NCBI GenBank assembly: GCA_027600665.1
Contig: JADGJL010000347.1
Span: forward strand, 1 to 24,158
Direction of reading: 5' to 3'
Length of the DNA stretch: 24,158 nucleotides
Source: Irineochytrium annulatum
Taxonomy: Eukaryota > Chytridiomycota > Chytridiomycetes > Chytridiales > Chytridiaceae
In this document: positions 1,585 through 23,230 of the stretch, piece by piece
Numbering within the stretch: the stretch's first letter is position 1
How the letters are laid out: every line of letters begins with the position of its first letter
Notes under the pieces: generated by a model
Told to the model about the DNA's origin: nothing
The model's database searches: none
Seen by the model: the letters and a program-made list of their open reading frames with translations, nothing else
Program-made: the position numbers and the translations under genes

Positions 1585-4400
1585 TTAACTGGAAGCTTGA
1601 ATATCGTTCCTCGAAGCCCGGACGCTCGCGACTTTGGACCCAACCTTCGAGGCCACCTTCGACGCAACGACAGCGCGAGGCGTCATCGACCCCGATCCAC
1701 GCCCCGCAGCCGCGCTGTGGCCAGCGGACGCCACGTAGCTCCTGGGGGCCTTGACGCTGGCGGCAGCGGACCCAGACTTAACTTCTTCCTGCTTATGGTT
1801 ATTGTGCTTCGAGGTCGTGGAGGCCCGGGCAGTGCCTGGCGCAGGCTCGTGAGAGTTCGACGCTGCGGCCGGTTGCGCCGTTTTTGAATGGCGATGGGTC
1901 TCCGATGCGCGCGGGGTCTTTTGGTCATGAGCATCCGTACCGGCCGGTTGCGCGGTGTCCGAGTGCGGCTGGATCTCCGATGCGCGTGGGGTTTTCTTCT
2001 CATGAGCGTCCGACGCGGCCGGCTTGGTCTCCGACGTTCGCTTGCTGGTCGTCGATGCTCTCGGCGTTTTCTCGTGAGCATCTGACGGGACGGTCTTCGC
2101 GGTCTCAGTTGCGCGCTTGACAGTCTCTGACGCGCGCGGCGTCTGCTCATGTCCGTCCGCCCGCGCGAGCTTGACCGTCTCCGACGCGCGCTGTACGGTC
2201 TCAGAAGCCCTCTTGCTCGCCACCGACGCACGCTGCGACGCGGCGACGGCATCGTTCGCGTGCTGGCTCGCCGAAGCCCTTCCAGTCCCCGGCCCGGACG
2301 CCTTCCCATAATGATCCGGCATCGGAGCAGTCTCCGACGTCACCCTCGCCCCGCCCTCCGACAAGCTCCTCCGCACCGGGAGGCCCGCGTCGACGTTGAG
2401 GCCTCCGATGCTGGAAGCGAGCGGGCCCGACGCGGCGCGCCTGACGGTCTCTGAGGCGCGCTTGCTGCCGGCAGAGAAGCGGTGGCTCGGCCCAGTGATG
2501 GATGCGCGGGCGGTGCCGGTCGCATTCACAGCGGGCTTTGTTGCCGAGACCCGGTTGGAGGACGTCGATGCCCGCTTGCTCGTTGTCGACACGCGGCGGG
2601 ATGAAGACACGTCGGCGTCCGTGACGGCGGCAGCCCCGTCCCTGGCCGCGTGGTGCTCAACGTCCGCAAGATCACGCAGACTCTCCACCGCCATCCTCGT
2701 CATCGACTCCCATCCGATCGCTCCCTCCATCCCCTCCTTCTCCACAGCGTCGTCGTCCCCACCAACAACATCCCGCATGCTCCCCAGCGCCACTTCCGCA
2801 ATCGACGCCCATAAGTTTACATCACCGTTCCTGTTCGGCCCCCTCGCCATCCTCGCCGCCCTCTCCGCCTTCCCGGCAAACACCCCGAACCCCTCCAAAA
2901 CCCCGACAACCGCCCTCAAGCCATCCACGAACCCCTCCTTCCTCCTGAAATCCACGACGCTCATATTCGGTATGTAGCTCAACATCTTTTCGCTGAGCCC
3001 TTCGCCCTCCTCCTCGTCGCCAAAGACGCACCAGATGATCGGGATGGAGGACGAGGCCGCGGTCGAGAGATGGGAGAGGCAGGAAGGGTTGTCGGCGTAC
3101 GCGGTCGAGATGCACGCCAGGACGCAGGTGGTTGACGGAGGGATGTACGTGGATGACGGGTAGGGGACGTCGACGGTGTAGGTGAGGGAGTGGAGCTTGT
3201 GAGCGAGCTCGAGAGGGTCCACGTCCTGTTAAAAACGGCAACCCCAGGAGTCAACTGTCGAGCTCCCCCTTTGTATGTATGGATTTATGTACTTACGCCA
3301 ACGACGTTCTCGCAATCCTCCGGCAGGATGTTGGACGACAGGCTGTTGAGGCTGCAGTAGGACACGAAGACGGAGCCCGTACCCGGTGTGCCGTTGGTCG
3401 CAGTCGACGACGACGTGGCAGCTCGAAGTGGTTGGCTGGATGCCAGATTCGCGATGGAGGAGCGGGCGGATGGCGTAGCGGCCTGGAACAGGGCTTGGGC
3501 CGCGATATCGACGACGGAGGCCCTCACGCTGGATGTCCTGCCATCGGAACGAAGACCCCTTGACTCGTCGGCAGGAGTTCGGGGGGCTGAGGTAGGCGTT
3601 CGAGGAGCGGACGCGAGAGCCGATGCACGGCCGGAGCGGGACGCCGACGCGGGGCGGGCGGACGCGCGGCCGGAGTGAACGACCGACGCAGGGTGGGCGG
3701 ACGCGCGGCCGGAGTGAGCGACGGACTTGGGGCCGGCGGACACGCGGCCGGAGTGAGCGACGGACTTGGGGCGGGCGGATGCGGGGCCCGGGGTCGTGGT
3801 ACGTGCAGAGGGCGGAGAACGGTCGTTGAGCTTGATGGCCGAGTCAGCCACGTCCTGAGCGGCGGGTGCGTCTGCGTTATCTCCCGCCGCCGCACTTTGG
3901 TGAGTGTCCTCCTGGTGTTCCTGTCCCCAGTTCGCGTCCTCGGCTCCATGCTCGGACTGGGCCACATCGTTCTCAACTGTGTGGCTTTGCTTGTCCGCAT
4001 CCGTGACTGGTGCATCAGCAGGTTCATGATCCGCGGCTGGCTCCACCTGCTGCTCATCCCCGCGCTCGCGCTGGTCATGTTCCGCGACGACGTCGTCGGT
4101 CTCGGCAGGCTGCTGCCCCGCGTCGCGTGAATGACCGTCGGCGGCGGGGTCCACGTTGGCGACATCGGCGTGGTGGGCATGAAGCGCCGCGTCCGCCGCG
4201 TCCATCGCGTCCAATGCGCGCCGCAGCCTCTCCTCATCTCGAGCCAGCTCACGCTCGAGCTCCTCGACCTCCCCCTCTTCTCGCTCCAGCTCTCTCTCCA
4301 GCCCATTCTCGTCGCGCATCAGCGGCTGCTCGAGCTCCACCTCCGCCTTCTCGATCTCCTTTTCGACGGCCGCCGCCTCGCGTTCATGGTCGTCGTGCAT
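1585..4400 (-). CDS. TIR-like domain protein with N-terminal coiled coil and Arg-x-Ser repeat tail
   Basis: Two exons, 4400..3297 and 3225..1585, encode 914 aa. The 71-bp intron (3226..3296) has donor GTAAGT and acceptor TTTTTAACAG and is phase 0. Residues 1-80 are a Glu/Arg-rich heptad region typical of a coiled coil. About 225-280 hold four 13-aa repeats. About 343-470 look like a TIR fold: strand VFVSYCSLN, helix ELAHKLHSL, strand YTVDVP, strand TCVLACIST, the YADNPSCLSHL loop-helix, strand IPIIWCVFGD and strand MSVVDF. His420 sits where enzymatic TIR domains have the catalytic Glu, so an adaptor role is more likely than NADase. The rest, to 914, is low-complexity Ser/Thr/Ala/Lys with many KRAS, RRVS and PRAS motifs. 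No signal peptide or TM is seen, so it is probably cytosolic. The ATG at 4400 is the first in frame; an in-frame stop lies near 4498. The TIR call rests on strand pattern, not on a search. Confidence 0.6.
3622..3777 (-). repeat. Four-unit 39-bp tandem repeat inside the TIR-like gene
   Basis: The units are 3622-3660, 3661-3699, 3700-3738 and 3739-3777, each 39 bp. Each encodes 13 residues of the form S-A-x-P-x-S-V-x-H-S-G-R-x. The two units at 3700 and 3739 are nearly identical in DNA, which suggests recent duplication. A decayed partial unit follows at 3778. The repeat lies just before the TIR-like domain. Confidence 0.85.
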
Positions 4401-4918
4401 CGCGCGTGGAGTGATTAACTCTTGCAATGCGAGTCGGTTGGACTGAACCCTGAACAAGGCGTTCTTTGGCTTCCCGACGCGCGGCGGCGGCGGCGTTTAC
4501 AGGCACACGTTGATTGGGGTCCTGGAGGGGATTGGGGGAAAGATCAGCGACCAATCCTTCGACCCGCGTTTACTTTCTGTTGTGCTAGGTGATTGCTATA
4601 CTCGCGACGAAGCGGTTGGGGACGACGTGTTGTAAATACATAGCCTGACCTGCACGATGAGGCTGAGGGACAGTTGCGACTCATTAATGATATTTAAATG
4701 GCCTTGTAGTTCATGTCTTGAAGCAGGATTATGATGATTATGATGTTAGTGCTCTAAATCAGAATTGTACGTCGCGAAAAAAGGTATGCGGGCTATGCGG
4801 AAAATTGCTAATGATGAAGATGTGTGTAAACATGCAAATGCTAAAATGGTACTATTCAAGATGCAGTCATCTATGTGCGCTCATTGCAGCGGCAGAAGGA
4901 ACGCCTGCCTTAAATCGC
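4401..4918. other. Intergenic: promoter of the TIR-like gene and 3' flank of receptor 1
   Basis: No convincing gene is present. The 4400-4600 side is GC-rich and should hold the promoter and 5'UTR of the TIR-like gene; the 4640-4918 side is AT-rich and follows receptor 1. A frame on the minus strand at about 4457-4520 reads like peptide (NAAAAARREAKERL), so a short 5' exon cannot be excluded. I did not find a clean splice path from it to the ATG at 4400. Confidence 0.4.
4513..4535 (-). promoter_or_regulatory. Pair of CCAAT motifs upstream of the TIR-like gene
   Basis: Minus-strand CCAAT pentamers lie at 4513-4517 and 4531-4535, 18 bp apart and 113-135 bp upstream of the proposed ATG. That spacing suits binding sites of the fungal HAP/NF-Y complex. 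The motif is short and may be chance; a third CCAAT lies on the plus strand at 4551. Confidence 0.25.
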
Positions 4919-6863
4919 CTAGTGAGCGGTCTTCTGGCCCATATTGGGGTCGTGCACGCTGGCGGCGTTAACGCTGCTGGCGGCATGATTTCGGGACGCC
5001 AGACTCTTGTTTTGCTGAATGGCCTCTGCGAACTTCGTAATCTGTGGAGGAGGAGGCCGCTGTCAACATGCATCTTGCACGAAAGTCTGCCGGGAGAGAA
5101 AACGTTACCATATTCCAGTATGCGCTTTCAATCATCGACAGCTCCTTGATCGAGCTCCTCGCGTTCTTGTCCTTCCCATGCAGCGCGCTAAAGTCGAACT
5201 TGCTCGCCTCCTCCATGTGGACCGCGAGCTTGGCCAACGGCCTGCCAATCAGCGTGAACGTCGCCGGGACAGAGAGCGCGACGAAGACAAGGCAGAGCCC
5301 GACGGCGACGCCAATCATGATGGCGTTCGATTTGTTCAGGTTGTTCTTCATCGTCTCCCTCGCGCCCTCGACGGCACCAATATAGTCCGACAGCGGGGCA
5401 CCGGTCGCGACGATAATGTCCAGGCCGTAGGGGTCGGAGTAGGAGTTGTGTTGGAAGATGAGGCCGCCGGCTTGATACGTGCCGGAGCTGGGCAGGCGCG
5501 TCAGATCGTTCTTGCACGAGGCAAGGATGGTTTGAACGACCAAGCGGGAGTTGAGGTCCGTCATCATGGTGATGTTCTTGAGGTCGTTGGAGATCGCGCC
5601 GGACACGTTGACCATGATAGACGGGCTCTCGTTGAGTACGCTGGAGCCGAACAAAATCTGGTTGGTGTTGAAGATGAAGGCAAAGCCGTTGGCCGTCAGA
5701 GGCAAGGCCCTCAAGTTAGTCGAGAGCGCTCCGAAGGTAAGGTCTACGGCGGCTACGCCCAGCAAGGTCCCTGACGACGAGTATACAGCTTGACTCTGTA
5801 GTAAATATTCAAAGTTCAGCATTTACGGTATCATCAATCCTGCTTTCTCACCGTCGTGATCCCGACGCTGTGTTCCGGGTCCGAGTAGACATACACGGGC
5901 GACCAAACCGGCACCGACTTTGACGCGTTCACGGCCTGCACATACCAAGGCCGCCCGCGAGTGTTGTAGGGAACGTTAAGAATCGAGTCCGTTTTGTTAA
6001 ACGACCCATCCGGTTTCAAATTCCAGAAAGTCAGCGTGTTGGGTGGCATATTCTGCGGGCAAAGCTTCGGGCATGCCTGCAGAGAATCGCAGCAGGTGTT
6101 AGAATCAGTTGCTGAAGCGAGCCGACTTATAGACTTACCGATCCGTTCGGTTGGCTTTGTAGGTTATCTTGCAGCACAACCTGGTAGAGCCACGGTGGCG
6201 CGAAGTTTTCTTTGCCGATGTTGACAAAGTTTCCCGTGCTTTGAGACGCGAAGTACAAGTAGGAAGCCTGGATGGGGGTCTTCGTTAAATATCAAAAGGC
6301 CACTGGCAAACAAGACGGGCAGATGCTAACCTGGTCAAACCCGGCGATAGTCTTATAGAGGTAAGGAATCATCATGTCGGTGGACAAAGGATCTGTTGTT
6401 TGCACATGCAGTTAGAATCCTGCTTTTTAACAAAAAATACCGCCAGCCCAACTAACTCAGGTATCCCAGATCGATCAGCTTTACGAGATTGCTCAGGACG
6501 AGCACGGGAAGCATCGCGAGCACGTTGATGTCCTGGATAATAGTCGTCGACACTCGGTCCTGAATCTGCAAAGCGAGCTCCTGGATCGCGTTCTCGCCCG
6601 TCGACAAACTGAGGTCGTTGTTGGTCGTGGCCGTCGAGAAGGAGATGCCGATGAGCGCGGCCGTGATGGCGGCGCAGCTGGGGGTTCGGGGGACGTCGCG
6701 CGTCAGATTGGGGCTCTCGATCATTTCGATTGGGGGCCCAGTCACGCTCAACTCACCAAAAGAAGACCTCGAGCGTGACGATGGTGAAGAACGGCAGGCG
6801 GCCGGCCTTGGCGGGCGACGCGTCCGCCTTGCGGGAGTCGCTGGTGTTGTGGTCTTCACCCAT
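4919..6863 (-). CDS. Receptor 1: dCache-HAMP membrane sensor without output domain
   Basis: Seven exons: 6863..6757, 6677..6457, 6392..6331, 6267..6139, 6076..5852, 5795..5109 and 5041..4919, encoding 517 aa. The layout is a cytosolic N-terminus of about 22 aa, TM1 (about 23-49), an extracellular double Cache domain (about 55-400), TM2 (407-431), a HAMP-like segment (432-477, with RPLAKL, SIKELS and AYWNM) and a 40-aa tail. Visible Cache marks are CPKLCP (175-180), Y210, R215-P-W217-Y218 and D266 in GVAAVDLTF, then the second subdomain with DPYGLD and GAPLSDY. In the amino-acid-binding dCache_1 family, Tyr, Arg, Trp, Tyr and Asp at equivalent places hold the ligand, and all five are kept here. 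The start matches the N-termini of the other three paralogues. Unlike them, it has no intron in the NVSG region, so its sixth exon is long. No cyclase, kinase or phosphatase domain follows. Confidence 0.85.
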
Positions 6864-7508
6864 CGTAGCAGTGGTTGTCGATGTATGTACCGGACGATAA
6901 GGAATTTAGAGAAAGTGCAAGCGCGGAAGGTGCAGGCGGCGATTTACTGCCGAATCTGAAGCCATTGTTCAGATGCATTAATAACTCCCGAGTCTCTCAT
7001 TATGAGGCGAGGTTGAACGGGTGGATTGCAGCGGAACGGACCTTCCTCATTCTCCAGTTGCCGAGAAAAAAAAAAAATAATAATAATAATAAAAATTTTT
7101 AGGTCAGCGTGAGCCGCGTTTCTTTTTCTTTCATTTTTTTTTGCCCCCGTTTTTCTATTAAGTATAAAGCACTTAATCTTTTAGCTAAATTCCGTTGTGG
7201 GCACGCATGGCCGGGTCAGGCTCTTTAAAAAGAGCGTCTGGAGCCGCTCTTAGGTGGAAGACAGCATGATATTGAGAGAAGCACTCGTGTATTGAATGAC
7301 GACAGTAACATCGAGACGAACGTAATATGTCTACTACTACCAGCAATAAGAATAAGAATCAAAACTGCGAAATTATACGAAACCAGTATTACTGCAACCA
7401 TGCGCAAATGCTCCTCCGGCCCATAATATCGTTATGGAGCAATGCGATTTTACATCTAACCAGACTGACCCGATGCAAAAAGCAGTAAAGAACAAGACCC
7501 GCTGGCTC
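6864..7508. other. Intergenic: promoter of receptor 1 and 3' flank of receptor 2
   Basis: No gene is supported. The region is AT-rich, with an A-run and AAT microsatellite at 7066-7100. A small inverted repeat (AGAGCG at 7231-7236, CGCTCT at 7245-7250) lies downstream of receptor 2, but nothing shows that it acts in termination. No AATAAA is seen on the minus strand close to the stop at 7509. Confidence 0.5.
7066..7100. repeat. Poly-A / (AAT)n microsatellite
   Basis: A run of 12 A (7066-7077) continues into about five AAT units and ends in AAAAATTTTT. It is a simple-sequence tract about 205-235 bp upstream of the receptor 1 start codon, where poly(dA:dT) can exclude nucleosomes. No function is shown. 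Confidence 0.85.
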
Positions 7509-9731
7509 TCAGTGCTGCGAAGGCGTTTGCGAGGACGGCGTCAAGGATGACATAAAGGCGGTCTTGGGCATCGGCTCGACGTGGCTGCCAGTCGCCGGTA
7601 GCTGGTTCATGCTCGAGCCGATATTACGTTGACTTAGAGCCTTGTTCTGCTGGATGCCCTCGGCGAACTTTGAGATCTGTTTTTTTTTCCCCCAAAGATG
7701 AAAAAACCGTATATTAGCCTTTTTCCAAGGCGAGATGAACGAGGACAAACATCCCCATAAAAAAAAAAGCTCACCATGCTCCAGTAAGAGCTCTCGATCT
7801 TTGCCAGCTCCCTGATCGAGCTCCTCGCGTTCCTGTCGACGCCGTGCAGCGCGCTAAAGTCGAACCTGGACGCCTCCTCCATATGGTTGGCGAGCTTGTT
7901 CAACGGCCTCCCGATCAGGACGAACGTGGCCGGGATCGACAGCGCGACGAAGAACACGCACAGGCACACGGCGACGGCGATCATGATGTTGTCGGACTTG
8001 GCCAGGTTCTGCTTGAGCGTCGTCCGCGTCTGCTCGACCGATCCCGTGTAGTCAGACAACGGGGCTCCAGAGACGACGATGACGGCGAGGCCGTAGGGGT
8101 CGCGGAAGAAGGAGTGCTGGAAGATAAGACCGTGGGTCTGGTACGTGTCGGTGGAAGGCAGGTCGGAGATTTTGTTGTTGCATGCCGCGAGAATGGCCTG
8201 GACCGCAAGGATAGAGTTCGGGTCGGTCATGTTGTCGATGTACTTGAGGTTGTTCGTGACCGTGCCAGAGACCTGTGGGGGTAAGCCCAGTATTAGATGG
8301 GAAGGCATTGACGAGGGAGAGGAGGGGAGGCATGTGGAGTTAAGCCCGGGATCGAGTCACTCACATTCAAGGCAAGAGAGATGGTCTCGGTGGGGACGCT
8401 AGAGCCGAAAAGAACGCGATCGGTGTTGAAGATGAAGGCAAAGCCGTTGGCCGTGAGCGGCAAGGCCCTCAGGTTGGTGGAGAGCGACCCGAACGTGATG
8501 TCGACCGAGGCCACACCAATGAGGCCGCCGGACGGCGTGTACATGGCCTGGCAAGCCGTGATCCCGATGTTGTGAGTTGAGTCCGAGTACACGTAGACGG
8601 GCGTCCAGACGGGGACGGAGCGATTCATGCTCGTCGCCTGCGTGAACCACGGGCGCTTGCGGGTGGGGAAGGCGTCAACCTCGAGCGGGGTCCCCTTGTT
8701 GAAATTGCCGGTGCCGTCGATGTCCCAGATCGTGATCGAGTCGACGGTCAGGTTCTGCGGGCAGATTTTAGGGCACGTCTAGATGGTTGCGTATTAGTTG
8801 TTGCGTATTAATCTCAAAACTTCACCGTTCCGTTTGGCTGATTCTGAAGGTTGTCCTCGATCAAGGCCTATAAGATAGCTGTTACGATGGATGTCTGATG
8901 TACACGGACAGCACTAAAAAAAAACAATCCTCTTTCATCCCATACCTGGTACCTCCAAGGCGGGGCGTAGTTTGCCTTCCCTACGGCTATGAAGTTTCCG
9001 GTGTTTTGAGCACCGAAATACACGTACGAGGCGTCGTCGAAACCGAGGATCTGCTGGTACAGGTACGGGTACATCATGTCAATCGACAGCGGGTCTAGAT
9101 GATAAAGTGTCAATGTTCGATCTCTTGATGGAAGGCGAAATCAAGCTTACTGATGTAGCCCAGGTTGATAAGCTTGACAAGGTTCCCAAGCACAGCAACG
9201 GGGGCCGCAGCCAGGGTGGCGATTTGCAAGGAGATGGCCGACGACAGCTGTGGGCACGCGCGAGTGGTAAGAAGAGAAGCGAGATAGCTAGCTAAGTTAG
9301 CGCTCAATGTACCTTATCCTGGATAGTGAGGGCGAGGTCCTGGATTGAGGTCTCCCCAGTCGTAAGGCACAAGTCGTTGTTCGTGTTCGAGGCCGAGAAC
9401 GAGATGGAAATGAGGGCCGCCGTTATGGCAGCACAGCTATCAAAAGCACGTTAACGCATCAGTACGCGATCGTTGGTGCTCCCCACCGCCACGCGTCCGT
9501 GCGTCTCCGTGGTTCCTCCCCGCCACCTTCCCCCTACCGTCCTTCCACCGCGTGGCTTCACCAGGGCCCCCACCACCACGAGAAACGACTCGTCGCCGAC
9601 CGTACTCACCATATGAAAACCTCCAAGGTCACGATACTGAAGAACGGCAGGCGGAAGCCATTGTTGGCCAAGGTGGCCGCTTTGCCGCTCGGGCTCATAC
9701 TCGCGTCGTCGGTGCCCTTCTCGGCGACCAT
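7509..9731 (-). CDS. Receptor 2: dCache-HAMP membrane sensor without output domain
   Basis: Eight exons: 9731..9610, 9436..9313, 9247..9151, 9094..8946, 8867..8826, 8778..8365, 8272..7775 and 7676..7509, encoding 537 aa. TM1 follows a Ser/Ala-rich cytosolic N-terminus; then come the double Cache domain, TM2 (IMIAVAVCLCVFFVALSI), the HAMP-like segment (RPLNKLANHM...SIRELAKIESSYWSM) and a 55-aa tail, the longest of the four. The ligand motif is partly changed: the first Tyr is Phe (FPTRKR) and RPWY has become RPWF, while Arg, Trp and the later Asp (GVASVDITF) remain. CPKIC is kept. Intron 1 is 173 bp, the longest coding intron seen here, and the intron after IQDK is unique to this gene. The frame stays open to an ATG at 9869, but 9731 gives an N-terminus like those of the paralogues. 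Confidence 0.85.
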
Positions 9732-10156
9732 GGCTGGCAGGTGGCGGTGGCGGGTCGACGGGTGGCGATGGGACCTGGGGAGTTCGCGGTTGGGCTGTGT
9801 GGCCTCGAAGGTGTAATTGCGTGCGGTGCTATGTAAATCTCTTGTAACGAAAGGGGGCTTTCGCTTCACCAGGAAGGTTGGCTAGGTCTCGGCGGACCCC
9901 CGTGTTCGTGGGCGGGATGGTCGGCAGCGTTGCGGACATCCGGAGAGAGGAGCGAAGGCCATTGTTCGACGATAACCACTGGCGAGTGTGAGCTTTCCAA
10001 TCGAAATTTCCTCCCGTTTTCGACGAGGATGAAGTAGACAAACGGAATGTGGCCGAGATTTTATGCAGATTGTATTAGCAGATCTATTTTTTTCTGATGT
10101 ATCAACGCCGTATGAAAGCATCAGAAGAGGAGGGGCGAGCGCGCCAAACTGGACTG

Positions 10157-10505
10157 TCAGTCACGCAGAGAATCAACCCTATGGCCGCCACCGGATAAGG
10201 CCGATGGTACTTTCATGACAGCAACTTCGTGAGCTGGGAGTCGAGCCAGCCAATACGTCCAACGAATTTGGCTGCCAGGTGCTTCCACAACCGGCTCCCA
10301 TCCGAACGCATTATCGACCATTCCCGTCCAGAAACGGTTGTTCTTGAACCACTCGCTCGATCCAGTCCACGTCTTCGAAGCCGATCCCAGTATGGGCAAC
10401 GAAATGATAACCCCGTTCCTCACGACAGGCCTTGGGGAGGGTTCCAACCGGCCGACCATTTTACTGGACGAATGGACGACTTTCCTCCTTGCTCATCCCT
10501 TTTAA
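10157..10505 (-). pseudogene. Possible degraded coding remnant of unknown family
   Basis: A 100-codon open frame (10459..10157) is rich in Trp and Gly. Its other two minus-strand frames also contain protein-like stretches: one reads GFEDVDWIERVVQEQPFLDG before a stop, another reads WKHLAAKFVGRIGWLDSQLT slightly downstream. An ATG near 10495 begins MSKEESRPFVQ, then a stop. Coding-like text shared among frames suggests a gene broken by stops and frameshifts, but short GC-rich DNA can give the same impression. No homology was recognised. Confidence 0.25.
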
Positions 10506-10695
10506 TTTTTCTGCCCACCGGTGATTTGCTTCTTACGTCTCCGCTGCCATACGGCCCGTATATCTGTAGCCCTCATCCGTGGGACCGCGCGTCAAAACCT
10601 TCGTCGCATCCCGGCCATAGGTTTTGTTTTGATATATAGATTAATATCTTGAGCCTTTGCTTGCAAATGTGTCATATACAACAGACGAACGAACT

Positions 10696-10701
10696 TTTAT
10701 T
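10696..10701 (-). terminator. Poly(A) signal of receptor 3
   Basis: An AATAAA hexamer on the minus strand lies 16 bases past the receptor 3 stop codon. This supports the stop position and a short 3'UTR. Confidence 0.6.
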
Positions 10702-10716
10702 GGTGAAAGCATTTAT

Positions 10717-12686
10717 CTAATCTACTTTCGTGATCATCATGGACGACTTGCCACCACCGCTAACGTCGTTTGTGCTCTGATTGCCGTTGCTGTTGGGACC
10801 GTGGCCATGCCTTTGCACGAGCGCCTTGTTCTTCTGTATGCCGTCGGCGAACTTCGATATCTGTTCGCGGTTGGCAGTGGAGATTTAATTGTCAGAAAAA
10901 CTCGGTGACCCAATTTATAGGTCAAGCCCAGTCCTCTTACCATGTTCCAGTAAGCGTTCTCAATGACTGAGAGCTCCTTGATCGTACTCCTCGCGTTCCT
11001 ATTGACGCCGTGGAGCGCGCTGAAATCGAACTTGCTCGCCTGCTCCATGTGTTGGGCGAGCCTGTTCAAGGGTTTCGCGATCAGGATGAAGGTCGCCGGC
11101 ACGGACATGCCGACGAAGAAGACGCAGAGCGAAACGGCGATGATGATCATGACCATCTCCGAGTGGTTGAGGTTGCTCTTGAGCGTCGAGCGAGTCTCCT
11201 CCACCGATCCCGTGTAGTCGGTCAAGGGCGCGCCGTTGACGACGTACATGTTCAGGCCGTACGGGTCGGAGAAAGAGGAATGCTGGAAGATGAGGCCGGA
11301 CTTTTGGTAGGTCTCGCTGGCCGGGAGATTGGTAAGATTTCCCTTGCATGCCTCAAGGATGGCCTGGACGGCGATGATCGAGTTAGGGTCGGTCATGTTG
11401 GCCAGGTACTTGAGGTCGTTTGTCAAAGCTCCGGTGCTCTTTTTTGTAACAAAAGATTGGTCACCGTTAGTATTTCATCGGTCAGCTATGAAAGCGCCAG
11501 CGCGTACATCTTTAACAGTCAACGAGATTGTTTCGTTCGCCACGCTAGATCCAAAAAGAACCTGCTTGTTGTTGAAGGCAAATGCAAACCCGTTCGGGGT
11601 GAGCGGCAGGTTTCGGAGATTCGTCGACAGGACACCGAACGTGATGTCGACCGCCGCCACGCCGAGAAGATTCCCGTTAACGTAGATGGCTTGACTCTGA
11701 TGCGGAACTTTCAGGGTTTGCTTGTTGAAATGGCAAAAACAACGACGCGCCTACCGTTGTGATTCCAACGTTGTGACCTATGTCGTCGTACACATAGACC
11801 GGCGTCCAGACCGGAACCGTAACGCCGGCTGCTTGCGTGTACCATGGCCGCTGCTTCGTGGGATACGCCGTAGTGGACGGCGTGGCGCTTTTGTTGAAAT
11901 TGCCGTTGGCGTCGATGTTCCAGATGGCCAGGTTGCCCTTGGGCATGACCGTCGGGCACACTTTTGGGCATGAGGCATCATCGTTCCGCTCGATCAACGC
12001 CTGATACTGCCATGGTGGCGCGAAGTTGGCTTTCCCGACGCACACGAAGTTACCCGTGCTCTCGGCGCCGAAGTAAACGTATGACGCCTCGTCGAACCTA
12101 CGACAAGCAACCGCGAACTTCAGTTAGTGTCTGTCGCGTGCTCACCAATCTTACCCGACAATCTGTTGGTACAGGTACGGATACATCTGGTCGATGTTTT
12201 GGGGATCTGGTTTTTTTTTCGTTCGTCTCGCATTAGCACACGCTAAAAGAAAGTACAGGGGGAGCACTTACTGTAGTATCCCAAGTTGATGAGCTTCACC
12301 AGGTTCCCCAGCATCGAGACCGGGGCGGCGGCGATGGTGGCTATCTGCAGCGATATCGTTGTGGAGACCTTGCTCTGTATCGTCAGGGCAAGTGTTTGGA
12401 TGGCCGACTCTCCGGTCTCAAGGCAAAGGTCATTGTTGGAGCTCGAGGTTGTGAACGAGATGGCGATGAGAGCGGCGGTGATGGCGGCACAGCTGTCGAA
12501 GTCGTGCGCGCGTCAGAGCATATTTTTCCCCTTCAATGCCACAGCGGCGCGCGCGACTCCTTTCAAGAGAAAGACTGACCAGATAAACAGCTCGGCCGTT
12601 ACTATGGAAAAGAACGGGAGTTTTAAGCCCTTGTTCTCTGTGACGAGGGTCGAGGCCGCCTCGCTCTGGTCGCCGTTCTTGGACAT
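10717..12686 (-). CDS. Receptor 3: dCache-HAMP membrane sensor without output domain
   Basis: Seven exons: 12686..12580, 12492..12272, 12206..12155, 12097..11755, 11696..11508, 11438..10941 and 10860..10717, encoding 517 aa. The order is TM1, double Cache, TM2 (MVMIIIAVSLCVFFVGMSV), HAMP-like segment and a 47-aa Asn/Ser/Gly-rich tail. The ligand signature is complete: Tyr in YPTKQR, then Arg-Pro-Trp-Tyr, then Asp in GVAAVDITF. CPKVC is kept. The protein reads ALIERNDDASCPK where the others have ALIEDNLQNxPNG-xCPK (or similar); the segment is shortened and both flanking introns are absent, so exon 4 is long (343 nt). The third intron is displaced by a few bases and is phase 2 instead of 0. The start chosen (MSKNG) matches the receptor 4 N-terminus. 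It is most like receptor 4 (NETIS, STGA, TLKSNL). Confidence 0.85.
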
Positions 12687-13025
12687 GGCGCGTCTGCTGC
12701 CGGAGGGGACTGTTTCCGGATGTGACTCCTCTCCGGAGGTGCGTACGGTTGGAGCGTCGGCCGTCAACGGTGGCGATCTTGGATTGCCACATCAAACGAT
12801 TTACACCGTCACGTATATCCCCAATATCGGTACCAGCAGCATTACTTCGACGAGAAAGCATTATGATTTACTCCGCTTGTTTGGCACGATCACGGAAAAC
12901 TAGGCAGGATAATGATTAAGTTATTTTATTACAAAATATGCACATGATATAAAATTCGAAGCTGTCAGGAATACGACACATGACCACAAGACGGTTCAAT
13001 CACCGAATCAAAGAGGTGGAGCAGT
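12687..13025. other. Short intergenic region: promoter of receptor 3 and 3'UTR of receptor 4
   Basis: This 339-bp gap is the tightest in the array. About 240 bp lie between the receptor 4 poly(A) signal (12925-12930) and the receptor 3 ATG, which leaves little room for an independent promoter. The reading frame upstream of the ATG stays open on the minus strand to about 12767 without another ATG. Confidence 0.5.
12925..12930 (-). terminator. Poly(A) signal of receptor 4
   Basis: AATAAA on the minus strand lies in an A/T-rich stretch about 96 bases past the receptor 4 stop codon. No other AATAAA is seen between the stop and this site. Confidence 0.55.
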
Positions 13026-15047
13026 CTACCCTACGCTGGCCTTAGCGAAACTCATGTCGTGCGAGCTTTGCATAACGCTGCTCTGTTGCGCGCCGCGGAG
13101 GGCGATCTGCTTGTTCTTTGAGACGCCCTCTGCAAACTTAGCAATCTGAAAACCAACGAAGGGTCAGGAAAAAGACCTTACTTCACGGCAAAGCCAGTAT
13201 ATGGACAAAGCACACGCACCATATTCCAATACGCGTTCTCGATCGTCGACAGCTCTTTGATCGTGCTCCTCGCGTTCCGATCCACGGCATGCAGCGAGGT
13301 GAAGTCAAACCTGCTCGCCTCCTCCATGTGGTTCGCGAGCCTAGTCAGGGGCCTGCCGATGAGCACGAACGTGGCGGGTATGGACAGCCCGACAAAGAAG
13401 AGGCAAAGGAAGACGGCGACGACAATCATGACGACCTCAGAGCGCGTGAGGTTGCTCTTGAGCGTGGCGCGCGCCTCATCCACGAGGCCCGTATAGTCGG
13501 TCAGAGGCGCGCCGTTCACGACAAAGAGCTTCAAACCGTACGGGTCCGAGAAGGAGACGTGCTGGAAGATTAGGCCTGAGGTCTGGTAGGTGCCGTTGGG
13601 CGCGAGATGGGAAAGGGTCTGGTTGCAGGCGGCAAGGATGGCGGCCACGGCAATGATAGAGTTTAGGTCCGTCATCTGATTGATGTATTTGAGGTTGTTT
13701 GTCTGCGCGCCGGTGCTCTGTTCCGTGGGGTAAGATATAGGCACGTTGAAGGAAGCAAGAAGACAGCACTACATAAGCGACAAACGCACATCGTATCCAG
13801 CAATGGAGATGGTCTCATTCGCGACGCTTGACCCAAACAAAATTCGCTGGTCGTTAAAAGCGAACGCGAACCCATGCGGCGTCAGAGGCAGCTGCCGCAG
13901 ATTCGTCGACAGGACCCCGAACGTGATATCGACGGCAGCGACCCCGACAATGGTCCCCGACGTCGAGTAGATTGCCTGAGACGTCGTCATCCCGATGTTG
14001 TGCACCGCGTCGGAGTAAACGTACACGGGCGTCCACATTGGGACCGAGACGGGCTGCTTCGCGACCGGGACGTACCAAGGCCGCTCCCTTGTTGGGAACG
14101 GCTGCGTCTGCGGATGCGACGACTTGTTGAAATTGCCCGAAGCGTCCACATCCCAAATGGATATAATTCCGGGATCCATATTCTGAGGGCATAACTTGGG
14201 GCAGGCCTAAGGTCATGGCTTATTTGAGCAACTAGTGACTACATATGACAATTTCACGAACCGTTCCGTTCGGCACGTTTTGAAGGTTGTCCTCTATCAA
14301 GGCCTGTAAGATGACAGTATTAAAACACTGATATCAAACGACATTCTGATGCTTAAAATACACAGAGAGACGAGGTGCATACCTGGTACCTCCAGGGCGG
14401 GGCATAATTGGACTTCCCGACGGCTACGAAGTTGCCAGACACCGCGGACCCAAAGTACAAGTACGAGGCCACCTGGAAAAGGCAACGCTTAGTAATGAAT
14501 TGCAATCAAGCAGTAATCACGTTAAAATCCAGGATTTGTTGATAGAGGTACGGGTATAGTTGGTCGCTGTTGAGAGGATCTACATCGCTGTGATGAGGAA
14601 AAATGCACGGGCAAGATCCTTCCGCTGTTCATCACATGCTTACCAAGGTATTGCAAGTTGATCAGCTTCACCAGATTCCCTAGCAAGGCCACCGGCGCGG
14701 CGGCCATGGCGGCAATCTGCAGCGAGATAGTAATCGACACTTTCGTCTGTATCTCTAACGCCAGTGTTTGAATCGATGCCTCCCCAGAGGCGAGCGACAG
14801 ATCATTGTTAAAGCTCGAGGCCGTGAAGGAGATGACGATGAGCGCGGTCGTGATCGCTGCACAGCTGTAATCGAGTAAGCTGTGGTCAGCTTCGTGTTCG
14901 ACGATAGAGTCCAGATGCTAATAAGAGGCAGAGAAGCACGTACAAGGTGAAGACCTCCATCGTCACGATCGTGAAGAACGGCAACTTCAGGCCGCGGTTC
15001 TCCGTCAGCAGGGTCGCGGCCGTCGAGGCCGCGTCGACCTTTGGCAT
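13026..15047 (-). CDS. Receptor 4: dCache-HAMP membrane sensor without output domain
   Basis: Eight exons: 15047..14944, 14864..14644, 14579..14521, 14472..14383, 14303..14262, 14206..13790, 13717..13220 and 13145..13026, encoding 516 aa. TM1 is split by a phase 2 intron at the same codon as in the other three. Then come the double Cache domain, TM2 (VVMIVVAVFLCLFFVGLSI), the HAMP-like segment (RPLTRLANHM...TIKELSTIENAYWNM) and a 39-aa tail. The ligand motif has Phe for the first Tyr (FPTRER) but keeps Arg-Pro-Trp-Tyr and the Asp of GVAAVDITF. CPKLC is kept. Two donors are weak (GTGATT after exon 3, GTTCGT after exon 5), but alignment with the paralogues and frame support both. The penultimate exon is 498 nt, the same as in receptors 2 and 3. 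It is the first receptor gene downstream of the TmcB-like gene in the direction of transcription. Confidence 0.85.
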
Positions 15048-15500: not shown

Positions 15501-18500
15501 CTAAGAGGTCTTGATTGAAATCTGATGGTTCAGTCCATTTTCACTGTGGCCATAGCTGCCACTCCGAGTCTGCGCCTGCACCTTCACATGCACACCTGAC
15601 TGGCGCAGTCGCAGCATCTGCCTGAGCACCGGCATGTCAGAGGCCACATCTGCCGGTATCATCAGCAGCAGCTTCATGGTCCTCTCGATCTCGGTCCGAA
15701 GCAGGTACTTGAGCACCCTCCTCCACAGGATCGTGTATGTCAACACGATCACCGCTACGAAGAAGCAGAACATAACGGACGCCGTTGTCGTCACGATCGA
15801 AAGCGAAGCGTCGGCTACGTCTTCGACTTCATCAACGAAACCGTCGTACCCCGCCATGATCAGCCGCGATAGTTCCTTCAAGTCCGCTGTCTCGGCTGAC
15901 GAGTCCGCCTCCGGGATCCCCTGCGCCACCGCCCCGACGCGCTCGACAAACAAGCTCGTCACGCCGTAGGTGGAGTACGACCCGAGGGCGGCGTCATGCC
16001 CGACATCGAAGAACTTGTATTTCGCGAAATCCCTTGGTATCCCCATCTCCACGTTCCCATACAGTATCCCCGCCTGATCCGCCACTAACGCGCCCGCGTC
16101 CCTCCTTAACACGCCAGCCGCGCTCGCCCACGGTCTCGTAAAATCCAGGCCTCGTACATCGAGCGCGCTATCATTTCCCAACGCGGCCTCCATCACGACT
16201 GCGGGCGCCCGTCCCGCTGCGGCGCGCGCGTCGTAGCCCAACGCCAGAAGGGCAGGGAACGAGCGCGTGGTTCGGGCCGTGACGAAGTTGGTTACGGAGC
16301 CAGCGGAGGACGCGATGAGGATGAAGATAAGGGCCGCGATGCAGTCGCGCATCAACCGCGCGTACATGGTGAAGGCTTTGCTCAGGAGCGGGTCTGCAGG
16401 GCCGCTGGCGGGCTCAAGCTCCTCCTCTGGATCTACCATCAGCACACGAGCGAAAGAACGGGGCAGCCTACCTTCAGAGCTTGAGTCCTTAGCGTTCACG
16501 TCGAGGTTGTCCTTTGAGACGGCGGACGAGGGGTCGTAGTACAAACGGTAAATATTGAGGGCAGCGGGCTTCGGGACCTCCAGGAACGCGCGGAGCGTGG
16601 CCTCCCTGTTTATCTTAGCGCTCCGGATTGGCACGAAAACGACATAGGCAGTGATCAAAAGGATAATAAGCGTCGCCGGGATGATGACTACGCAGCGTGT
16701 TAGAAGCAGGGAGCACCGTTTCCGTAAGTAACTAACCAAGTTGAAGAATTCCGAGCAGATCGACATCGCGCCGGATGACGTCCGCGTACGTGGACGTCAT
16801 CTTTCCGTACGAGTCCGCCAGCGTGATGAGCCCGTTGTCCAACACGAACCTCGCGTCCGGGTCCCCGTCTAGCGTAGTTATGTTCCATCCGGCGGTATGG
16901 CTAACTAGATGCTTTACTGCCAGAACAGCTCGCCTCGTATACGTCATGGTCGCGTCCCGCAACGTTTGCGTCCAGTTCACCCGCATGGGGTCTATAGCAC
17001 CACCGGCTTCTCCACCACCACCCAGGTACACGTCCAACGTGACCGAAGGCGTCCCCCACAACGCGTACAACCTCACATGCGACCCGGCAGACTCGAATAG
17101 CTGCGTGCTATTATCCGCGAGCGCCTTTACGGCCTCTAAAACCTGCGAGCCGGCGGCCGTCATCGACTCCCCTGCCCCCGTCATCGCGAGCGCCTGAAGC
17201 GACCTCAGGGCGCCATGCAGGTCCACGAACGCTTGACGACAAGCGCTCGCGACGCCCAAGAGGTCAATCTCGAACTGGATGAACCTCTGCCCGTAAACGC
17301 TGACGAGGACCTGGGCGACCGCGAGCAAGGCGAAGGCCGCCTGCGCGCTCCGAACGGTCCAGACGAGCCTCTCCCCCGATCGGTGGGAATGTGACTGGAC
17401 CTGTTTCTTGTAGAGCCGGTGGGCGGCGCGTTCCTTGCGGGACATCGACCACAACGCTGACGGTGAAGGGTTTTTGGTGGTGTCGACGTCCGAGGTCTTG
17501 TCGGATGTGGCGCTGTCCTTCCGTATGACGTTGACCTCGTCGTCAGCTCGGGGGATCTTGCGGAGGCGCTTGCGGATGTTGAGGGCCTCCGTATCGTCCT
17601 GATGGATCTCCTCCAGGAATTGTGCATAGTTCGCCAGCGCTCGTCGAGACTGCGGGAACTTCTCGCTGAATGGGCGCGAATGCATTAGATCATGAAGTGA
17701 ACAGTAACGGCGCGAGCTCACAGCAGCTCCTCGTAACTTTGCGTCGCGATCGTGTCGGACGTCTCCATGTAGTACACCAAGCCGACGAGCGTTGATATGG
17801 TGTCGTCTTCGGCCGAGTCTTCGTTGGTGTAGAGGATGCATTGCCAGAAGTTGGCAACACAGAGCTTGGCCTCCTTGTGAGCGAGCGTCGCGCGGGCAAT
17901 AAGGTGCTTGAATTCGGCCGAGTTTGCCCCACCAAGGATCGTCTGGCCGTTCGCGGCCGTCCGGCGGCCGATACCGTTGGCTATGTCGTCTGTAATCTTC
18001 CAGATAATCACTAGGAGGTCGAAAAAAGGGTGGCAATCAAGCGCGCGCTTTAGATACAGCTTTGCCGTCGCTTGATCGTCTTTGTAAACTGCATTCATAA
18101 TGTTTAGTGCTGACTACTCAATAAAATAGATTCTTTACCTAGCAGGAAAACTGCATCTAGAAAGCAAAAGCCCTTGTTAAAACACAGGTGGATTAAAAGG
18201 AGCCTTACAAGACACATATATTTGCGGGTTGTGGTATCTGTCCAGGCCGTCCATAAAGATGCTGTCGGCAAGCTTTATCGGCATCGTGTAACTGGAAAGA
18301 AAGCGGGTGGCGATTTCGACCTACAAAGCGTGAAGTGATAAGAAACAGTATATTATTAAGAGGTCTATGTGGACCAACCTGGCTCGAATGCCAGAACCGA
18401 GAGTCCACCCGGTGATCGGCATCAATCTTCTTGGCTTCCTCATTCTTTTTGAAAATGCTGAGGCTGACGGCATATGACGTGGCCGAATCGACTCTCCAAT

Positions 18501-21086: not shown

Positions 21087-23230
21087 ATGTCTCACGGAAT
21101 GGGTTTACCTAGGATTGACTCGCATGGTATGTACGAAAGAGACCGATAATTGTGCGGGATTCGTGCAGAACATTTCCCTAACTCGTTTACTTCGTATTAT
21201 CAGACAACGTCTTCAACCACCCTCATCAATCATCGTCGTCGGCCTCCGACCCGAACCACGACATTCTCTTCGGGAGTTACGACGGCAGCGGCGAGTCCTT
21301 TTTCAACCGTGGCTCCATCTACAACCCGCTCGACGCCACGATCGACCCCTCTGGCAACACGGGCGGGATCAACCTCGTTACTCAGACGCTCTTTGAGTGG
21401 GAGGGCGGCCGAAGCGCCGAGCGCGTCAACGTCGACCTCATCGGTGACCACCACCCCATTGACGCCGTCTCGCACCAACACTCCCCCGCCTTGCACCCAC
21501 ATGTCCACCACATGTCGCCCTTTGGGATGATGGAATCGCTCGGTGATGTCGACGGCCTTCTGGGATCCGGCATGGGAGCACGCTCAGGCGGCCTCTTTGC
21601 TCACACGTCGGTCGACCATCACGACTCTCACCACCACGAGGCTCACTTGGCCGCCGGGCTGGTTCACAACGACCCCTCAAGGCGCCGGGAAGAGCCCACG
21701 GCCTCCGTTGCGGAGCTATTCAACACCAACACCACCCCTATCCCCGCCACCACCATCAACACAACCCCAAATGTCGACCCGGTTGTCGCTTCGACGTCGT
21801 CCGCCGCTGTATCGGCCCCGGTCGTAAAGAAGGCGTTCACTGCAACTATGTCCAAAGCCAAGAAATCCAAGCACCCCGCCGACGCGAAGCCGTACGCCCG
21901 CAAGGACAAGAAGGTGACTGCCGCTAAGGACAGTGCGTCTAAGGGAAGCAGCGCCGCCGCCAAGTCCTCCAAAAAGCACTTTAAGGGCAAGGCTGGTAGC
22001 ATTGTCAAGGTCGAGTGTGACGGCTCCGCCCTCATGCATGGTCATGACGAGCTTCTACTACCGGACCTCAACGCCCCGAACGCCGTCGAGAAGCCCATCA
22101 CGAGCATGGCGGCGCTTCTGAACCAGGCCGAAATCGACGCCGTCGCCGCCTCCCAGTTCAACGCTGTCGCGGGCCTGTCCTCCCCCACGGACATCCACAT
22201 CGGCCCCCACGTCGCCTCCTCGGCCGACGCCGCTGCCCTTGCGCTCTCGTCCGACCACCTTAGGCTTTCCCTTTTCGACACGAAGCTCTCCGACTCGGAC
22301 GATGAGGGCGCCGCCATCGAGGTCGACATCAACGGCCTCCCATGCCTCCCCGAGCTGCCGCCGGACCTCGAACTGGCCATCCAAGCCGCGCACCAGCAGC
22401 AGCAACAGGCCCACGGCATCCCGCAGCCCTTCGACGGCCCGCACGCCCACATGACGCCAATAGACCTTCAAAACGCCATGGCACAGCAGCACCACCAGCA
22501 GCAGATGATGCACGCCCTCGCCGCGGGCATGCAACACACAAACTCCACCGCCATCCCGCCCGGCGGGTCTACGTCCTCCCTCCACCTCCAATCCCAGCAC
22601 CACCCTAGCTCCGCCACCAAACAAAAGCGCCAGCGCACCACGACGCACACGCCCCGGCCCTCGAACAGTTTCATCCTCTACCGGAAGGAGAAGCACGGCG
22701 AGATAATGGAGCAGTACCGCGGCACCAAGGCCCTGAACAACAACGTCATCAGCAAGATCGTCGCGTCCATGTGGAGAAACGAGAAGCCGGAGGTGAAGGC
22801 AAAGTACGCGGCCAAAGCCGAGGAGGAGAAGAGGGCACACATGCTCAAGTACCCGGACTACAAGTATAAGCCGAGGAAGGCGCCGAATAAGGCCAAGCAT
22901 GTGCCCGGCGGGCCGGTTAACGGCGGGCAGAACGGCGGAGTTGCGATGGTGCAGTGTGGAGGCATGATGGCGGGCGGCGTTATGGCGGGCGCGATGGGCG
23001 GAGGTGTCGTTTCGGCGGCGGCCGCGGCGGTGATCCCTGAGCATCAACAGCAGCACTACAACTTTAGCCAGCCGGGTGTGATGCCCACATGGTATGGCTA
23101 TTACCCGCCGCCGCAGCAGGGGCCAATGATGCAGCCGGCGGAGTTGGCCGGCGCGCAGTGGCAGGGAGCCGACATGGGGTTCTGGGGGCAGGCGGGGGGT
23201 GTAGAGGGACCCTTCGGGCAGCGGTTCTAG
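21087..23230 (+). CDS. HMG-box (MATA/SOX-type) transcription factor
   Basis: Two exons, 21087..21126 and 21204..23230, encode 688 aa. The 77-bp intron (21127..21203) has donor GTATGT, a CTAAC branch point and acceptor TATCAG, and is phase 1. The DNA-binding HMG box spans about residues 498-572: RPSNSFILYRKEKHG, then NNNVISKIVASMW, then HMLKYPDYKYKPRK. This is the sequence-specific fungal type, not the abundant chromatin type. The N-terminal part is His/Ser/Asp-rich, then comes a Lys/Ala-rich basic stretch (about 225-295), then Ala/Asp-rich and Gln/His-rich stretches before the box, and a Gly/Met/Ala/Gln-rich tail after it. It is expected to act in the nucleus. Related boxes are found in fungal mating-type and developmental regulators, but the box alone does not show a mating role. 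The first ATG after the leader is used. Confidence 0.9.

Follow-up and report, generated by a model that had tools for sequence, protein, structure and literature searches.

What does a membrane receptor do if its chain ends shortly after entering the cytoplasm? This question is raised by four genes, here termed A to D, in a stretch of 24,158 nucleotides of Irineochytrium annulatum DNA (contig JADGJL010000347.1 of assembly GCA_027600665.1; hereafter the window), which is contig C378 of the assembly that we searched (26.9 Mb, 1082 contigs). Each of the four proteins is predicted to carry an extracellular double Cache (dCache) sensor between two transmembrane segments (TM1 and TM2), followed by a HAMP-like segment, and for this DNA none of them has a recognisable catalytic or adaptor domain of its own. 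The best explanation as a whole, in which we place about half of our confidence, is that they are output-less dCache-HAMP-like receptors acting on a separate cytosolic partner.

The genes are arranged head to tail on the minus strand in the order D, C, B, A, and their models were built by GT-AG splicing and mutual homology. Gene D (13026..15047) comprises eight exons and encodes 516 amino acids, gene C (10717..12686) seven exons and 517 amino acids, gene B (7509..9731) eight exons and 537 amino acids, and gene A (4919..6863) seven exons and 517 amino acids. There are 6 to 7 introns per gene, all of them GT-AG, each spliced frame is open to a single stop codon, and the distance from one stop to the next start is about 340-990 bp. 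Gene B is identical to the GenBank protein HK101_007232 over 537/537 residues; HK101_007231 represents gene A with the same stop, a few added residues at one junction and an alternative, shorter start, which falls within the first intron of our model, so that part of TM1 is lost together with the first exon. The spliced models, together with ectodomain identities of 58-68%, confirm the preliminary description of this locus as four paralogues lying head to tail on one strand, and the recount of residues beyond the last intron (A 40, B 55, C 47, D 39) agrees with the 39-55 given there. Polyadenylation-like hexamers (AATAAA, ATTAAA) are found within 400 bases past the stop for C and D and not for A and B, which we regard as neutral. 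Bacterial contamination as the source of the window is ruled out by the introns; moreover, two of the proteins are filed in GenBank under Irineochytrium annulatum (Chytridiomycota, Chytridiales), and the contaminant loci that we fetched from the assembly differ from the window in GC content and gene structure.

The extracellular part of A to D is predicted to be a double Cache of the amino-acid-binding kind. All four proteins match dCache_1 of Pfam (PF02743; E 7.7e-9 to 2e-8, 34.5-35.9 bits), each below the curated 45-bit cut-off, and MCP-like_PDC_1 of the same database scores above its own cut-off in A and C and below it in B and D. The predicted fold of gene B, from a model of low confidence outside the sensor, is that of a dCache domain, in which two PAS-like modules come after a long helix (8021..9378, minus strand, introns included, residues 61-400; the best VIA-align match covers model residues 61-405). 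These sub-cut-off matches and the fold of gene B bear out the earlier claim of a double Cache sensor in all four proteins. Both the fold and the motif residues align with bacterial dCache_1AA amino-acid chemoreceptors. The dCache_1AA motif (Y/R/W/Y, Y, D) is complete in A and C (6/6 each), where the equivalents of the Y121-Y129 stretch of PctA read YNTRGRPWY (5942..5968) and YPTKQRPWY (11839..11865); gene D retains five of the six residues, with phenylalanine for Y121 (FPTRERPWY, 14072..14098), and gene B four, with phenylalanine for both Y121 and Y129 (FPTRKRPWF, 8644..8670; all on the minus strand). In the NCBIfam database A and B match nothing but a bacterial phosphodiesterase, and this weakly, with 36 and 44 bits against a cut-off of 1200.

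The four genes belong to a larger family, which was found by whole-assembly searches with full-length B and three segments of the HAMP region, scoring the best candidates only. It consists of at least 18 loci, namely the four in the window, two on contig C279 and one on each of 12 further contigs (C1003, C607, C443, C454, C181, C626, C656, C873, C625, C843, C1026, C822); a contig-edge fragment on C587, near-identical to the C443 gene, was excluded from this count. In all of these loci (18/18) the frame stops 11-61 residues past a conserved FA..I..N block, whose pattern was widened by hand to include C822 and C181; the C181 frame meets an intron, and its spliced tail is about 60 residues by eye. 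The only other matches of the HAMP-segment searches were weak ones on C159, C436 and C325, contigs with long intron-less frames of bacterial type. The ectodomains form groups without mutual matches: that of C454 finds C454, C626 and C181 only, whereas the segment from TM2 to the HAMP-like part of the same gene also finds other groups. A Pfam scan of ten loci, with a single exon from each, recognised Cache in C1003 (E 5.5e-5, below the cut-off) and, at the margin, in C607 (E 0.09), and not in the pieces of C454, C656, C443, C625 and C279, single exons that may miss a Cache domain.

We call the cytoplasmic segment HAMP-like on evidence from paralogues and profiles that is weaker than that for the dCache domain. 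Of the architecture TM1-dCache-TM2-HAMP claimed previously, the dCache part stands, while the HAMP part, for which Pfam gives no match in A to D, is supported indirectly. The segments lie at 13140..13363 in D (residues 430-479), 10855..11084 in C (423-472), 7671..7918 in B (435-484) and 5036..5252 in A (430-479), on the minus strand and with the last intron included, and the consensus after TM2 is RPL.+LA.HMEEAS+FDFS.LHG.++NARS.I+EL..IE.AYWNMI.KFA..I..NK.L. Among the paralogues, C181 matches Pfam HAMP with 30.1 bits and passes the cut-off of 25, C454 reaches 24.8 bits, and 5 of 14 family segments have matches with E values of 1 or less, the lowest being 9e-8. In a profile comparison with hhalign, the 14 family segments matched seven HAMP domains of the bacterial contaminant with a probability of 96% if TM2 was included and of 76% if it was removed (best of 40 column shuffles, 12%). 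In one row of this alignment (A1, row 14, the second C279 gene), which also entered the residue profile, the Pfam HAMP matching of the 14 segments and the profile searches of cyclase loci and of the PDB, the TM2 letters are out of frame; its exclusion gives 96.5% and 73%, respectively (best of 40 shuffles without TM2, 2%), and the conclusion of the comparison therefore stands. The window subfamily alone (6 rows) reached 91% with TM2. In the family HAMP profile the glutamate of the second helix is invariant and the starting proline is present in at least 90% of the sequences; a search of the PDB with this profile returned no match at E 1.

The last intron had been thought to end the HAMP part. 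It is in fact located within the second HAMP helix, and the conserved block extends about 13 residues beyond it. In gene B a conserved helix, KFAEGIQQNKALS (7632..7670, minus strand), which contains the FA..I..N block of the 18 family loci, follows 3' of the HAMP-like part and precedes a variable tail with the stop codon (7509..7631, minus strand). Identity among A to D is 72-78% in the HAMP-like segment and 54-77% in the 13-residue helix, compared with 58-68% in the ectodomain and 8-28% in the tail. The ratio of nonsynonymous to synonymous substitution rates (dN/dS) is 0.06-0.32 in the HAMP-like part and 0.17-0.26 in the ectodomain, so that both are under purifying selection, and the proportion of synonymous differences (pS) is 0.61-0.70. 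The duplications are thus not recent, and the conservation and low dN/dS of the HAMP-like part indicate that selection maintains the cytoplasmic stub. The tail, which had been proposed as a docking site, is too variable to serve generally in this role; the FA..I..N..L helix seems the better candidate. Taken together, the common ending of at least 18 loci, the age of the duplicates and the selection on the HAMP-like segment strengthen the earlier view that a recent truncation is unlikely, and the family seems to be a receptor class that has no output.

A Pfam scan of A to D detected no MCPsignal, HisKA/HATPase_c, receiver, class III cyclase or VWA domain. At the level of the assembly, none of 32 class III cyclase matches, 18 MCPsignal matches and 39 scored HATPase_c matches (of 101 candidates) is located on the 14 family contigs, the window included. 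In six cyclase loci (L031-L036, on 6 of 21 cyclase contigs) the HAMP profile found nothing with an E value of 1 or less, and among the best candidates of the HAMP-segment searches there was no fungal protein joining the HAMP-like module to a catalytic domain. The preliminary description had asked for full-length cyclase or kinase relatives in the same genome; cyclases, MCPsignal and scored HATPase_c domains were found on other contigs only and revealed no full-length family member, genome protein kinases not having been searched for. Only one fungal Cache protein that we found seems to have an output. It is on contig C683 (L040, G000:C683:4869-7530), where a dCache frame (30 bits, below the cut-off) precedes a second frame of the same strand that encodes a transmembrane segment, TPR repeats and a VWA domain; we take the two frames, by their position, as one putative gene. 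The genome thus probably contains at least one Cache receptor with an output. Used as a query, the membrane-proximal segment of C683 matches only itself, and this difference in make suggests that the family without output forms a class of its own.

By sequence and fold prediction, A to D are two-pass membrane sensors with the double Cache outside the cell and, inside it, the HAMP-like module, a short helix that is conserved and a tail that is loose. If they act on a separate partner, ligand binding would shift TM2 and, in a dimer, alter how the HAMP-like helices pack, and the exposed FA..I..N..L helix might switch the cytosolic partner by docking or release. Because subfamilies with unrelated-looking ectodomains have the block in common, this partner is probably common to them as well; in a fungus with swimming spores, sensing of nutrients or of a host would be a likely use. 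The class part of the earlier proposal is sustained by the at least 18 loci that end alike, and a partner on the HAMP helix would fit. With more doubt than confidence we further suggest that a zoosporic fungus may have converted bacterial-type Cache-HAMP sensors into an expanded set of chemoreceptors, encoded by at least 18 genes, with varied ectodomains, a common HAMP-helix module and a new, purely eukaryotic cytosolic partner replacing CheA, kinase or cyclase, and that these might be the long-missing zoospore chemoreceptors.

Several observations weigh against this interpretation. Pfam HAMP matched none of the four window proteins (0/4), and with the transmembrane segment removed the probability of the window subfamily (6 rows) against the bacterial HAMP domains is 20% (best of 40 shuffles, 1.1%). 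The cytosolic partner is hypothetical, the gene models come from the DNA of one assembly, and amino acids are weak attractants for four diatom-parasitic chytrids, according to excerpts of one report (PMC5334607). In addition, the three protein-database searches returned only HK101_007231, HK101_007232 and, in two of the three, one histidine kinase. Since genes C and D and the 14 family loci outside the window did not come up either, true relatives escape the protein collection or its filters, and this negative result is uninformative with regard to other chytrids. A tblastn search of phage records found nothing, as expected.

Among the alternatives, the idea of the preliminary description that the proteins are decoys survives best, as an unlikely one. 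A to D would then serve as decoys or modulators, joining full-length receptors by way of the HAMP helices and damping or adjusting their activity; this would agree with the general ability of HAMP modules to dimerise and with the presence of a fungal dCache frame and a TM-TPR-VWA frame at C683. However, the C683 membrane-proximal segment finds itself only, no fungal full-length protein with the module appeared among the best candidates of the HAMP-segment searches, and 18 decoys without a visible partner are not to be expected, so that this idea is the less supported one. Next, and likewise improbable, A to D might, like alpha2delta and CACHD1 of animals, assist an ion channel or a transporter as accessory subunits whose Cache domain works on the extracellular side. 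Animal Cache proteins without an output domain act in this way, according to the parts of the source used here (PMC9901441), and the amino-acid motif is common to both; yet Pfam detects no VWA domain in A to D, and their strongest constraint is on the cytoplasmic HAMP-like segment, which is absent from alpha2delta and whose conservation this explanation leaves unaccounted for.

It is very improbable that 3' exons were missed and that transcripts bypass the terminal exon and run on into an output domain. The gene models rest on DNA alone, and about 1 kb between genes C and B would offer some room, but the other gaps are as short as about 340 bp, the GenBank stops of A and B are identical to those of our models, 18/18 family loci end alike, and their contigs carry no cyclase, MCPsignal or scored HATPase_c match. 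Two of the three minus-strand open reading frames (ORFs) of at least 80 amino acids in the C-B gap were scanned and had no Pfam match, nor had the next ORFs beyond gene A, which when spliced gave 13 bits to TIR_2; the ten ORFs scanned in gaps or downstream regions, which come from the C-B gap and 7 of 13 family contigs other than that of the window, encode unrelated enzymes (GFO_IDH_MocA, PNP_UDP_1) or nothing recognisable. Least probable of all are degenerate remnants of horizontally acquired bacterial receptors, which would accord with the divergent HAMP, the lacking output and the bacterial dCache-HAMP proteins in the same assembly, but not with the low cytoplasmic dN/dS, the old duplications and the intact frames, nor with eight fetched bacterial loci that are long single frames with a GC content of 0.435-0.505, as against 0.517-0.587 in 13 fetched family loci outside the window.

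Output-less receptors of the kind proposed resemble several known systems in part. The bacterial dCache_1AA chemoreceptors (PctA, PctB, CtaA, Mlp24/Mlp37) have the same fold and motif residues and the same TM-dCache-TM-HAMP order; in contrast to them, A to D lack the methyl-accepting chemotaxis protein signalling domain, contain introns and have a divergent HAMP, with S.I.EL in the place of bacterial DEIG.L. The dCache_1AA family was reportedly defined in a PNAS paper whose data may already include sequences such as these. The C683 gene of the same genome also has a dCache frame and a transmembrane segment on a fungal contig, with TPR and VWA after the membrane and a membrane-proximal segment unlike that of the family. 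Cache histidine kinases of fungi and plants (group VI, Sln1/AHK1) likewise place an extracellular Cache domain between two transmembrane segments in a fungus (excerpts of PMC4822843 and PMC6944256), whereas A to D have no kinase or receiver, a sensor nearest to the bacterial amino-acid dCache, and 18 family loci. Animal alpha2delta and CACHD1 are eukaryotic dCache proteins with the amino-acid motif and without an output enzyme (PMC9901441, in part); A to D differ in lacking VWA and in having a constrained HAMP-like cytoplasmic module. As far as the consulted portion of a 2016 survey goes, fungal Cache domains are confined to histidine kinases (PMC4822843), and in the partly accessible literature on dCache, Cache and HAMP in fungi or chytrids we found no paper describing output-less Cache-HAMP proteins. 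Zoospores of Batrachochytrium have been reported to move toward keratin, cysteine and sugars (excerpts of PMC4660679), and the sections of the literature on zoospore chemotaxis available to us named no receptors. For this behaviour the family provides named genes and a predicted ligand class, and it would serve as a natural experiment on what can be switched by a HAMP module that has nothing fused to it.

Two observations offer leads, and only leads, to a partner. Three similar class III cyclase genes (L031, L035 and L036, on C286, C140 and C228) have a long coiled-coil-like stretch preceding the cyclase. The next gene downstream of A (1585-4496, minus strand) seems by eye to begin with a coiled coil at its N-terminus, contains long repeats of low complexity and has a very weak C-terminal match to TIR_2; as a TIR adaptor it was not accepted, with just 13 bits against a cut-off of 28, and it remains a lead. 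The bacterial contaminant of the assembly (contigs C547, C657, C137, C214, C975 and C126 of G000, L001-L008, and others) encodes dCache-HAMP chemoreceptors and histidine kinases in long intron-less frames. From reading the sequences, it may be Paenibacillus-like. Upstream of gene D, a multi-transmembrane-looking gene (15501-18113, minus strand) contains TmcB-type TPR repeats (PF25474, 43 bits), with no recognisable output domain in the joined part, and farther on an open frame of 682 amino acids on the plus strand (21182-23230) encodes an HMG box (56.5 bits).

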